Shown here piece after piece: positions 55,665 to 60,180 of a DNA stretch of 64,000 nucleotides. The notes below the pieces were generated by a model, which was not told where the DNA came from, did no database searches, and saw only the letters and a list, made by a program, of their open reading frames with translations. Each line of letters opens with the position of its first letter. Within the stretch, counting starts at the first letter, position 1. The translations under genes were made by a program, and so were the position numbers. This stretch comes from Candidatus Nitrosotenuis aquarius. Lineage in GTDB: Archaea; Thermoproteota; Nitrososphaeria; Nitrososphaerales; Nitrosopumilaceae. The stretch spans positions 832,328 to 896,327 of the forward strand of contig NZ_CP024808.1 of the NCBI RefSeq assembly GCF_002787055.1, given 5' to 3'.

Positions 55665-55738
55665 TTTATCTGGGTTTTGTGCCCATCAAAGATAACGTTT
55701 CCGTATGATTTATTCGTAAACCAATAGATACTGCTTTG

Positions 55739-57097
55739 ATGGAAAATGTCTTTTTGAAAAGGACCGGAGCACTCAAGATATCGCTTGCGGCCATTTTGTC
55801 GGCATTTGTAGTAGAGTTCGTCTTTGGAGTGTTATCGAACAGTCTGGCATTACTCACAGACAGCATTCATGCATTATTGGACAGTGTTGTGACAGTTGTG
55901 TTGCTATTGGCAGCAAGATTTGCCATCAAGCCTCCAGATGCAGAGCACACCTATGGCCACGGAAAGGTAGAGTCTCTTGGGGGAATGATTGGTGGAATTG
56001 CGATATTTCTGATTGCCTGCTTTTTTATTTTTGAGGCGATAATGAAGATACAAAGTCCCACTCACATTACTGTTACCAGCACCTTGGCGCTTGCTGGTGC
56101 AGCCTATACAATTTGTGTGGATATTTTCAGAATTGTTCTTTTGAGACGTGCCATATCAAGGCTAGGAGGCACTACGCTCAAGGCCGACTTTTACCACGCG
56201 TTTTTGGATTTGGGATCAACGCTTGTCGTCATTGTAGGAATTGCACTGGTGTCATTTGGATTTGACCATGGTGACTTCTTTGCGGCAATAGTGCTTGGCG
56301 GACTGCTTTGCGTTCTTGCAATCAAGCTAGTATACAGAACAGCCCAGGATCTAACGGACATCATCTCGCCAGAGCTGGTAAACAAGGTCCAAAATATCGT
56401 ATTGTCCACAGAGGGAGTGGTGAGCACAGGCCCGATTCTTATGAGAAGGTCAGGCGACTCGATATTTGCAGACGTCACAGTATCATTGCGGGCAGATGTC
56501 AGCTTTGAGAAGGCGCATGAAATATCGACTGCGGTTGAGAAAAACATCAAGGATCACATCTCAAACTCGGAAATCACGGTACACTTTGAGCCTAGCTGGA
56601 AGGGAGTTCCATCGGACTCGAAGATTTACGAAATCGCATCCAACGTCCCAGGTGTAAAGGGAATACACAACGTAAGCCAACACACGTCGGCTGAATCTAC
56701 ATTTGTTAGCCTTCATGCGATGGTGGACAGACAGATGAGTCTTGATGATGCGCACCGCATATCAGAGATAATTGAGGAAAAAATCCGAAAAGAGCTGCCA
56801 GAAATAGACCGCATCACAATACACCTAGAGCCATACATTACAATGCCAAAGGACCTAAAATCATATGACACCAACGATGAAAAAATAATTCAGCTTCTAA
56901 AGGAGCACGCCGAAGTCAAAAAGGTAGGCAGTATTGTTACCTTGAACTTTGAGGACTTGATCAAAATAGACATCGACTGCTCATTTGATAAGGACCTCTC
57001 AATTGAAAAGGTCCATGATGCGACATCAAAAATAGAGCAGAGCATTCGAAGTCATTTCAAGAATTCCGTCATAACAATACATCCAGAGCCCTACTAG
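55739..57097 (+). CDS. Cation diffusion facilitator (CDF) metal exporter
   Basis: Zn2+/Mn2+/Fe2+-type efflux protein of 452 residues. Six helices with the transport site motif NSLALLTDSIHALLDSV in helix 2 (Asp and His) and HAFLDLGSTLVVIVG in helix 5 (His, Asp), plus the DAEHTYGHGKVE loop. The C-terminal cytoplasmic part is long: three repeats of about 75-85 residues, each ending ITIHxEPY/W, instead of the usual one. ATG 55739 is preferred over TTG 55736; the TATA-like ATTTATT (55707-55713) is 29 nt upstream. The stop shares CTAG with the convergent ZIP gene. Confidence 0.93.
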   Translation: MENVFLKRTGALKISLAAILSAFVVEFVFGVLSNSLALLTDSIHALLDSVVTVVLLLAARFAIKPPDAEHTYGHGKVESLGGMIGGIAIFLIACFFIFEAIMKIQSPTHITVTSTLALAGAAYTICVDIFRIVLLRRAISRLGGTTLKADFYHAFLDLGSTLVVIVGIALVSFGFDHGDFFAAIVLGGLLCVLAIKLVYRTAQDLTDIISPELVNKVQNIVLSTEGVVSTGPILMRRSGDSIFADVTVSLRADVSFEKAHEISTAVEKNIKDHISNSEITVHFEPSWKGVPSDSKIYEIASNVPGVKGIHNVSQHTSAESTFVSLHAMVDRQMSLDDAHRISEIIEEKIRKELPEIDRITIHLEPYITMPKDLKSYDTNDEKIIQLLKEHAEVKKVGSIVTLNFEDLIKIDIDCSFDKDLSIEKVHDATSKIEQSIRSHFKNSVITIHPEPY

Positions 57098-58260
57098 ATC
57101 AGAATGCTAGTCACGTACATGATTATCATTCCGACTGCAATTCCTGCGGCAGTCGGTGCAGACAAGAGCCCTTGCTCGTCTTGCCTTATCCATTTTAGAA
57201 TGGCCACTATGACCTGAAATATTGCGCCAGCTCCTACCGACAAGAAGATAATTGCAGAAATTGGTGAATACTGGAATCCACCAATCCATGCGCCAAATAT
57301 TGCCGGCGCCCCTGCTATTACTCCCATTGCTGCTAGTTTTGCAATCATTGGTTTTTGGCGAGCCATCGGGGCCGCTATTGCCAAGCCCTCAGTGGTATTA
57401 TGGATTGTAAAGCCGACTATGAGAAATGTGCTCAGTGCTATTTCGCCTAGGCCGATTGCTGCACCTATTGCCAAGCCTTCACCCAAGTTGTGCAGTCCAA
57501 TTCCTATTGAGACCATCAGGGCAATGGCTACTGACTTTGATGCGGATGAAACACGGCTGACTAGTTTCTCAGACACATAATACAATCCGACAAAAGAGCC
57601 GACAACCACAGTTGCAACAAGCAGCTGCCCGTTGAATGCGCCAGAGAGCCTTTCTGCAGAGATCTCCATTCCTTCTTCTATTGCATCTATTCCCAAGAAC
57701 AAAAGTAGGCCTGCAGTCAGTGCCAAAAAGAACTTGTATTTTGCAGGACTCATCTTTGCAATGAACGGGAACCAAAGCAATCCGATCAATACTGGAATTA
57801 TTCCAACATAGGTGCCAATCACTGCAAAGTACGACACAAGATCAATGCTTGGCTTGATTGCAGGAGCCGCCGCCTCTACTGAATGAGCAAAGCGAGTTCC
57901 GTCATTTATTGTGAGGCCAATTTCGTACGGCTCTGCCTCATTCCATGAATACGGAATTCTGACCAGAGCTGTTTCAAATCTTGCCAAATGCTTGTCTGGC
58001 TCTATTGCTGCCGGCTGGATTCTGTCGTTAACGTCGGCCTGTGCAATGGATACATCAATTGGCCCTGTGTTTCTTGCTGTGACTTGGATTTCAGATTCCA
58101 CAAAGTCGACTCGCTCTATTGTGATGTTTGGGAGTGGAGTTCCAAAGTTTACAAGCTCGGCGCCCGGTCCAAAAAGATACACAATCATTGCGGAAAGCAA
58201 TACTAATGGGATTATTCCAGCTGCTGCGATTTTTGCCTTGGATGTTTTTGTAGATTCCAT
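57094..58260 (-). CDS. ZIP-family metal transporter with N-terminal extracytoplasmic domain
   Basis: Membrane importer-type protein of 388 residues. It starts with a helix, an extracytoplasmic beta domain of about 90 residues (NITIERVDFVESEIQVTARNTGPIDVSIAQADVND), then about eight helices. Metal-site motifs: HNLGEGLAIGAAIGLGE in helix 4 and HNTTEGLAIAAP in helix 5. ZIP proteins move Zn2+, Fe2+ or Mn2+ into the cytoplasm. Its ATG overlaps the multicopper oxidase stop by 1 bp, so the two are cotranscribed; pairing of ZIP with this oxidase recurs in ammonia-oxidising archaea. Confidence 0.92.
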   Translation of the reverse strand: MESTKTSKAKIAAAGIIPLVLLSAMIVYLFGPGAELVNFGTPLPNITIERVDFVESEIQVTARNTGPIDVSIAQADVNDRIQPAAIEPDKHLARFETALVRIPYSWNEAEPYEIGLTINDGTRFAHSVEAAAPAIKPSIDLVSYFAVIGTYVGIIPVLIGLLWFPFIAKMSPAKYKFFLALTAGLLLFLGIDAIEEGMEISAERLSGAFNGQLLVATVVVGSFVGLYYVSEKLVSRVSSASKSVAIALMVSIGIGLHNLGEGLAIGAAIGLGEIALSTFLIVGFTIHNTTEGLAIAAPMARQKPMIAKLAAMGVIAGAPAIFGAWIGGFQYSPISAIIFLSVGAGAIFQVIVAILKWIRQDEQGLLSAPTAAGIAVGMIIMYVTSILI

Positions 58261-59279
58261 TATTGTACGACCTCGTCTTGCACTAGGAACAGTCCGGTCC
58301 AGCCTTTTTCTGCAAACTCGGTCTTGTGTGCATGAAACATGAACTTGCCTGGAGTGTCATAGGTAAACTCCATTATTCCACGCTCGCCTTGCGACAAGGT
58401 AATCATGTCGGTAAATGCGCTAGGCACGCTGTACGTGCCTGTTGGGTAATAATGGTACAGATTCCCATGAAGGTGGAAATTGTTTATCTGGTCAAATTCC
58501 AGTATGTTTACCACATAGATTCTCACAAGTTCACCTTTTTTGATCTGGATTGGGTGGTGCTGATAGTAAAACGGAATGGTGTTTGCGCCATAGAAATTAT
58601 TTTCTGCATCAAAGTCAGTGTCAAACCCATTTAGGACCATCACCATTTCATCTGCTGGGGGGCGCGGCTTTTTTGGATCTACAATGTACACTCCGTACAG
58701 TCCGTGCGAGATGTGCTCTTCTAGTGGCATCACATGACAATGATATGGATGAACGCCTGCTGGGCCTGCCTCAAACTCGTACGTGAATTGTCCCCCACCA
58801 GGGCCTACCGGCTCAAAGACTCCGTCCATTTCTGCCGCATGGAATCCATGAAAGTGAATCGTGTGGGTTTTAGATCCCATGTTGATGAATTTTACCTTGA
58901 CCCAGTCCCCTTCGGTGGCACGTATTGTGGGGCCAGGCACCGTTCCATTAAAGGTCCAGACATTGTAAAAGACTCCCGGCGATATCTCCATTACCTTGTC
59001 GTCTTCTGCAATTATGGTGTATTCACGTACTGTCTTGCCGTCAACACTTGATGTTCTGCCATAGTTAAACTCGCGAAGATACTTGTCGGGATCGATTTCT
59101 ACTGTTTGCGCAGTGTATATCGGATCCAACACATCGCCAGATGTTTTGATTACGCCGCCAGTATGTGTCACAAAGATCTTTTCCTCTTTTGCATCAGATG
59201 TAATTGGATAAACAAAGTAAAGCGCAGCTAGAGTAGCAGTTGCTGCTATGGCAAATAACATCTTTGAGAACGGCTTCAA
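58260..59279 (-). CDS. Two-domain multicopper oxidase
   Basis: Extracytoplasmic copper enzyme of 339 residues with an N-terminal signal/anchor. Domain 1 holds HTIHFHGFH and HPYHCHVMPLEEHISHGLYG (type 1 site: Cys181 and His189, with Leu194 where NirK has Met). Domain 2 has NNFHLHGNLYHY and FMFHAHKTEF, where the type 1 Cys is Ala317. So there is one type 1 copper, in domain 1, plus HxH pairs for a trinuclear site: the type C two-domain pattern. Possible roles are metal oxidation, laccase-like or NirK-like chemistry. A TATA box near 59307 overlaps the palindrome upstream. Confidence 0.9.
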   Translation of the reverse strand: MKPFSKMLFAIAATATLAALYFVYPITSDAKEEKIFVTHTGGVIKTSGDVLDPIYTAQTVEIDPDKYLREFNYGRTSSVDGKTVREYTIIAEDDKVMEISPGVFYNVWTFNGTVPGPTIRATEGDWVKVKFINMGSKTHTIHFHGFHAAEMDGVFEPVGPGGGQFTYEFEAGPAGVHPYHCHVMPLEEHISHGLYGVYIVDPKKPRPPADEMVMVLNGFDTDFDAENNFYGANTIPFYYQHHPIQIKKGELVRIYVVNILEFDQINNFHLHGNLYHYYPTGTYSVPSAFTDMITLSQGERGIMEFTYDTPGKFMFHAHKTEFAEKGWTGLFLVQDEVVQ

Positions 59280-59308
59280 GACAATCCTGGTTGGTTTTTT
59301 GTTTATTT

Positions 59309-59345
59309 AAATTTAGCCTAGGCTAAATTTCTTAACCAAGGCTAA
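59309..59345. promoter_or_regulatory. Twin palindromic operators in the oxidase promoter
   Basis: Site 1 (59309-59330) is a perfect 22-bp palindrome: AAATTTAGCCT followed by its exact complement. Site 2 (59332-59345) is TTAACC-AA-GGCTAA, a near match to the TTAGCC-TA-GGCTAA core. The centres are 19 bp apart, close to two helical turns. Site 1 abuts the minus-strand TATA (TTTAAATA, about 59304-59311) of the multicopper oxidase; site 2 lies upstream of the divergent gene's TATA (near 59368). The core resembles DtxR/MntR-type metal-repressor sites. Confidence 0.75.
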
Positions 59346-59393
59346 ATTTTGAGGCTGCAATACCAATATAGAGGCTCAAAAAGAGGCAAAGGC

Positions 59394-59894
59394 ATGATAA
59401 AAAAGTCTCACCTGATCCTCTTTGTGGGCGGCGCACTAGTCGCAATCGGGATGGTGCTATCATACACTGGTGCATCAGTCATTTCTGGCCAAGTATCCAT
59501 TAAAGAAGCGCTAGTCAACGGAACGATACCTGCAACACTTGAAAAAGAGCTAGACCCGTCAGTGACATCTCAGGGCGCATTTGTAGTACGGGCAGAAGGT
59601 GAAGAGCGAGTAAACCTTGTCGCCACTGTGTACGGTCCGTTTGGAGAAGAAATTGCATCAAAGAAGATAACCGACGTTTCAACTGAGGATTATTTTGACA
59701 TTGAATCCAAGGGAACGTACAAGCTCGAAATTAAAAACAGTGGCCAGGAAACTCCAGTGGTATTAGGCCTGACTCACATGCCAGACAAGTCCATTGTTGC
59801 GCTAAACATGTTGGGACAATCCATGATCATAACAGGGTTTGTAGGAGTCGGAGTTGCCGCAATATATGCGCTGAAAACAAGAAAGTCTAGTTGA
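59394..59894 (+). CDS. Unknown small membrane protein divergent from the oxidase
   Basis: Protein of 166 residues with a membrane helix at each end (LILFVGGALVAIGMVLSYTGA and MLGQSMIITGFVGVGVAAIYAL) and an extracytoplasmic beta domain between them (GAFVVRAEGEERVNLVATVYGPFGEEIASKKITDVSTEDYFDIESKGTYKLEIKNSG). The ATG at 59394 is chosen over one 15 codons earlier because CAATATAG near 59368 is 26 nt upstream and the extension is very basic. It shares the palindromic region with the oxidase, so it may belong to the same response. Overlaps the convergent gene by 8 bp. Confidence 0.75.
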   Translation: MIKKSHLILFVGGALVAIGMVLSYTGASVISGQVSIKEALVNGTIPATLEKELDPSVTSQGAFVVRAEGEERVNLVATVYGPFGEEIASKKITDVSTEDYFDIESKGTYKLEIKNSGQETPVVLGLTHMPDKSIVALNMLGQSMIITGFVGVGVAAIYALKTRKSS

Positions 59895-60180
59895 GATAGC
59901 TGTCTAGCTCCGTTAGACCGTCAACTACGCCCTTGTAGTTTTCGTCATTTTCCATGAATTTGGCCAGCTTTTCAGAGTCAACCGAATAGGTATTGCCAGA
60001 CACAATGACAAATCCCGTCTCTGCAAGATACGCCAACCTGGTTTTGATTTCAGATTCTGTAATTCCAAGGCTTGAGGACAGGACTGTAGATTCTTTTGGT
60101 CCAGATTCCAGCTCTGCCATTATTATCGATACGTTCTGATCAAAGAGTGCTTCTGCTACTTTGGCCTTGTCATATGACAT
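59887..60180 (-). CDS. Small winged-helix transcriptional regulator
   Basis: Regulator of 97 residues with a winged helix: VSIIMAELESGPKESTVLSSSLGITESEIKTRLAYLAETGFVIVSGNTYSVD. It resembles ArsR-type or generic wHTH regulators; no metal-binding cysteines are present. Follows the VWA gene by 8 bp on the same strand. It is the nearest candidate to bind the palindromes at 59309-59345, but its lack of a metal site makes a remote DtxR-type protein more likely for those. Confidence 0.75.
   Translation of the reverse strand: MSYDKAKVAEALFDQNVSIIMAELESGPKESTVLSSSLGITESEIKTRLAYLAETGFVIVSGNTYSVDSEKLAKFMENDENYKGVVDGLTELDSYLN

Follow-up and report, generated by a model that had tools for sequence, protein, structure and literature searches.

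The MntR of Bacillus subtilis was resolved by cryo-EM on mneP, where it occupies 18-bp dimer sites with 1 bp between them and therefore centred 19 bp apart, with K20, Y22, D27, E55, R58 and G59 as contact residues, and a matching spacing of the MntR sites occurs at Escherichia coli mntS (PMC11275975). Direct reading of the E. coli mntS sequence gave two sites 19 bp apart. For archaea, Leyn and Rodionov (2015, J Bacteriol) reportedly described the DtxR-family regulons FetR, MntR and ZntR, with palindromic DtxR-type sites that are said to precede NRAMP, ZIP and TroA-type transporters, as is the case here. The literature searched contained no link of MntR or DtxR to the archaea studied here; that survey of archaeal DtxR regulons may already describe the motif, and the novelty of what follows is provisional.

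We analysed a 64-kb stretch of DNA (hereafter the window) at 832-896 kb of the genome of Candidatus Nitrosotenuis aquarius, a single contig of 1.70 Mb, in which two operators precede an operon encoding a multicopper oxidase of the MCO1 lineage and a ZIP-type transporter. Most probably this pair constitutes an array for two MntR-type dimers bound side by side, through which Mn-loaded MntR would repress MCO1-ZIP and release it in Mn scarcity.

Layout and conservation of the operator pair

The proximal operator, AAATTTAGCCTAGGCTAAATTT, is a perfect palindrome centred at 59319.5, and no other perfect palindrome in the window exceeds 16 bp; its core, TTAGCCTAGGCTAA, occupies positions 59313-59326. 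The core of the distal operator, TTAACCAAGGCTAA, carries 2 mismatches, and only 0.18 such matches are expected by chance per 64 kb. The earlier note had described a perfect 22-bp palindrome with a near copy 19 bp away in the oxidase-ZIP promoter, at the oxidase TATA box and upstream of the divergent one, and this arrangement was confirmed, with the qualification that 19 bp is the centre-to-centre distance and not the gap, the cores lying 5 bp apart. The TATA-like box of the oxidase promoter, TTTAAATAA, shares 3 bp with the outer arm of the proximal palindrome, which also covers the expected place of a BRE next to the box, and the TATA-like AATATAG of the divergent gene lies 18 bp past the distal footprint. 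The proximal operator also has the form of an MntR operator: an 18-bp palindromic site in the promoter of an uptake operon, built from a pair of 9-bp inverted repeats.

Table. Operators, promoter elements and genes around the MCO1-ZIP promoter, numbered from the first base of the window.
Feature	Position	Strand	Basis or remark
ZIP-type transporter, N-terminal helix and extracytoplasmic beta-sandwich	57094..58260	-	BbZIP profile match; AlphaFold/Foldseek
MCO1-lineage multicopper oxidase with two domains, leading the operon under predicted control	58260..59279	-	Pfam Cu-oxidase_2 and Cu-oxidase_3; orthologues
TATA-like box of the oxidase promoter, TTTAAATAA	59303..59311	-	Sequence; conserved TTTAAA/TTTATA directly downstream of the proximal site
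Proximal MntR-type operator, perfect 22-bp palindrome	59309..59330	.	Predicted 18-bp dimer site 59311-59328; kept in 80/80 orthologous promoters
Distal MntR-type operator, core TTAACCAAGGCTAA at 59332-59345	59330..59347	.	Centre 19 bp from the proximal one; 75/80 promoters
TATA-like box of the divergent gene	~59365..59371	+	Sequence; kept in G012, which lacks MCO1-ZIP
Divergent small membrane protein	59394..59894	+	Neighbour; present but operator-free where MCO1-ZIP is absent

Orthologous oxidases share the palindrome in their promoters: the core was found within 3 mismatches in all 80 orthologous promoters of the named genomes, compared with 2 of 1493 random 200-nt stretches from the same loci, although these genomes are related and the 80 counts are therefore not independent events. 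Mismatches numbered 0, 1, 2 and 3 in 26, 19, 32 and 3 promoters, respectively. A second site lay at exactly 19 bp in 75 of the 80, with every other spacing occurring at most 4 times, and some promoters carried a third site at 38 bp. The conserved block spans about 40 bp, and its flanks are little conserved except for the TATA box. In three genomes of other families (G049, G065 and G050), MCO1 is preceded by a related pair whose second site falls on the TATA box. In a further genome (G025, L276 1-360), a perfect AAATTTAGACTAGTCTAAATTT palindrome precedes an MCO1 gene truncated at the end of the contig, and a gene-presence table would therefore wrongly score MCO1 as absent there; this apparent absence was set aside as an artefact.

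The candidate regulator

Two DtxR-family genes were found in the genome, at 263 kb and 1.10 Mb. None lies in the window, as the earlier note had stated, and its expectation of a regulator encoded elsewhere was thereby borne out. The gene at C1:262982-263440 encodes a 153-aa protein whose best match is B. subtilis MntR (1on1, E 6e-27) and which contains the DtxR N- and C-terminal domains (PF01325, 71.6 bits; PF02742, 53.6 bits). This protein carries all six MntR metal ligands (D8, E11, H77, E99, E102 and H103); among its 38 relatives, D8, H77, E102 and H103 are invariant, while E11 and E99 are each kept in 35. It also has most residues of the dimer-dimer contact, of which K20, Y22, D27, E55 and G59 are present in 35 to 38 of the 38 archaeal relatives, and position 58 is His in the 153-aa protein versus Arg in B. 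subtilis MntR. As its score for the NCBIfam MntR model (NF003025) is 134.8 bits, under the cut-off of 138, we call it MntR-type and not a certified member of that family. The 148-aa paralogue is a Cys-containing SloR/ScaR/IdeR-like protein in which nearly all of the MntR ligands and contacts are missing.

An MntR-type gene adjoins MCO1-ZIP at 6 of the 80 named loci and also in G045, where it immediately precedes the operators and MCO1, and in G055 and G078, where it immediately follows ZIP; in G057, G069, G071, G079 and G080 it adjoins NRAMP. In the fragmented assembly of G031, the operator is present and an MntR-type gene was not found. Comparison of the DNA sites indicated that TAGC-N4-GCTA is common to the operator here, to the E. 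coli mntH site (ATAGCAAAGGCTAT) and to E. coli mntS, whereas the +5 base is T in the sites here and C is preferred in B. subtilis (as inferred from G at -5). The core had originally been likened to DtxR/MntR sites in general; the E. coli half-site match and the 19-bp spacing sharpen this likeness to the MntR type.

Importers behind the operators and the effector metal

MCO1-ZIP is present in most of the Nitrosopumilaceae examined. The transporter scored 16.3 bits for Pfam ZIP (PF02535), under the cut-off of 35.1; a 43-sequence family profile matched BbZIP (E 2e-7), and the AlphaFold model (pLDDT 83) gave a Foldseek match to BbZIP across the membrane part. Both metal motifs are HNxxEG, a pair that also occurs in the broad-range ZIP ZupT. 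Residues 1-130 consist of the helix and the beta-sandwich, which weakly resemble archaellum FlaF/FlaG and pilin-like folds and possibly form an extracellular docking domain. The neighbouring gene (55736-57097, plus strand), whose end meets that of the ZIP gene, encodes a CDF exporter that has unusually many ZT_dimer stretches (three) and whose HxxxD motifs, judged by eye, are of the zinc type. It stays beside the importer position in genomes without MCO1-ZIP (G012 and G033).

A blind search of 81 whole genomes with the pattern TTAGN6CTAA-N5-TTAGN6CTAA returned 46 matches, of which 32 were before MCO1, 10 before a canonical NRAMP and 4 elsewhere, one of these four belonging to an MCO1 locus that is split in two and whose remaining half it represents. 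As a control, the pattern in reverse returned 8. Within the host genome, pattern searches for the operator core found only the MCO1-ZIP locus above chance, and thus gave no support to the wider regulon that had been suggested. Two further sites, C1:113148 and C1:1691243, each with 2 mismatches and one of them intragenic, were rejected as chance-level matches.

While the target in the host genome is MCO1-ZIP, the operators of relatives precede Mn-type importers of the NRAMP or TroA-type ABC class. NRAMP genes with the DPGN and MPH motifs, which mark Mn/Fe transporters of the NRAMP type, are preceded by a 19-bp operator pair in G012, G014, G021, G024 and G043. In G012, the MCO1-ZIP segment is gone from between the CDF and divergent genes, leaving the divergent TATA region and no operator, and in G023 an NRAMP with a degenerate operator pair occupies the MCO1 position. 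G033 carries a four-gene ABC importer there, whose binding protein is closest to TroA, PsaA and MntA and whose operon is preceded by TTGCATCAGACTAA and TTAGCTTAGTCTAA, 19 bp apart. Within the family, a canonical NRAMP was found in 6 of 8 genomes lacking MCO1 and in 1 of 41 bearing it (Fisher p = 1e-5, a value that ignores phylogeny), one of the six (G042) being a partial gene not typed by motif, and the association likely reflects only two or three independent events. As the pair precedes MntH, or in one case a TroABCD-type importer, where MCO1-ZIP is lacking, the MntR regulon predicted from these promoters is very small: a single pair of operators behind which Mn-type importers are exchanged. 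Another NRAMP-like subfamily, which occurs in G001, G003, G007, G008 and G013 (L212-L216) and is possibly NrmT-like, has DDDPSG where the canonical proteins have DPGN and lacks the MPH motif; none of the members tested was preceded by an operator, and the subfamily was treated as distinct and not considered further.

The preferred reading is that sufficient intracellular Mn(II) would give metal-loaded MntR, encoded near 263 kb, which would bind both sites cooperatively and cover the stretch that adjoins the TATA box on its upstream side and reaches it, so that TBP/TFB would be blocked at the MCO1-ZIP promoter; in scarce Mn, MntR would be released and the oxidase-ZIP uptake operon made. The oxidase would perhaps act in metal oxidation or in excluding competing metals at the ZIP mouth. 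Our analysis favours repression over activation; importers are normally under repression. Mn is the favoured effector for two reasons: no other metal is typical of all of MntH, TroABCD and ZIP, and the regulator has the MntR ligand set.

The same operator pair and regulator could possibly answer to Fe(II) or Zn(II), which would make MCO1-ZIP an iron or zinc system and MCO1 a Fet3-like ferroxidase, a reading that we regard as improbable. Fe is a substrate of ZIP and NRAMP and Zn one of ZIP and TroA, ZIPs are often broad, and the motifs of the adjacent CDF appear zinc-type. Nitrosopumilus maritimus moreover has none of the known systems for iron uptake and is presumed to depend on ZIPs (PMC9723733). 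However, only Mn is typical of all three exchanged importers, the ligands are D8 and E99 of MntR and not the Met/Cys of DtxR/IdeR, and a separate Cys-containing DtxR paralogue is present in the genome.

Much less probable still is a copper-responsive operator with MCO1-ZIP as a copper uptake system, as the literature proposes from a modest rise of Nitrososphaera viennensis MCO1 and its adjacent permease under Cu limitation (log2FC 0.81 and 1.33; PMC7785015). The Cu-responsive motif of that study, TTCSGSMTTTGWACYANT (PMC7785015), differs from the operator here, the operator relocates to Mn-type importers, the linked regulator is MntR-like, and the MCO1 genes of N. maritimus respond inconsistently. 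Since the operators are MntR-type sites, MCO1-ZIP more likely belongs to manganese supply than to copper uptake, and its predicted control by MntR speaks against the copper-uptake proposal in the literature. For metal acquisition by ammonia-oxidizing archaea, the drivers of marine nitrification, this would move the widely conserved MCO1-ZIP from copper to MntR-type control.

The earlier note had also taken the operators to link the divergent membrane gene to the oxidase operon, and this found no support: the gene is kept operator-free in genomes lacking MCO1-ZIP, where the operators stand before another importer, and it is probably not an operator target. The end of this gene is overlapped by a gene for a 97-aa winged-helix protein (59887-60180, minus strand), and the two stay paired in Nitrosopumilaceae even without MCO1. 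That this winged-helix protein is the regulator, acting on both divergent promoters, is hardly credible and was rejected, because its gene, although only two genes away and usually syntenic (61 of 80 named loci), is retained alongside the divergent gene where MCO1 and the operators are absent and is elsewhere unlinked from MCO1, as in G045, where the MntR gene adjoins instead.

Comparison with Fet3-Ftr1-type uptake and bacterial MntR regulons

Like Fet3-Ftr1-type uptake, the locus pairs a multicopper oxidase with a metal importer, but the importer is a ZIP and not an FTR, the control is MntR-like, and the coupling of oxidase and importer is only putative here. We give about even odds to the further proposal that MCO1-ZIP is an oxidase-assisted Mn importer of a new kind, which takes the place of MntH or TroABCD under a constant pair of MntR operators.

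The MntR regulon comprises mntH, mntA, mneP and mneS in B. subtilis, and mntH and mntS in E. coli. The system described here shares with these an MntR-type protein with six ligands and the 19-bp spacing of adjacent sites that occurs at mneP, mneS and mntS, and the operators of its relatives likewise precede MntH and a Mn-type ABC importer. Unlike the bacterial regulons, it has an archaeal TATA promoter, a multicopper oxidase-ZIP operon as main target, essentially one target per genome, and paired sites on an uptake promoter. The 19-bp paired-site geometry of MntR, known from bacteria, is thus kept in archaeal promoters.
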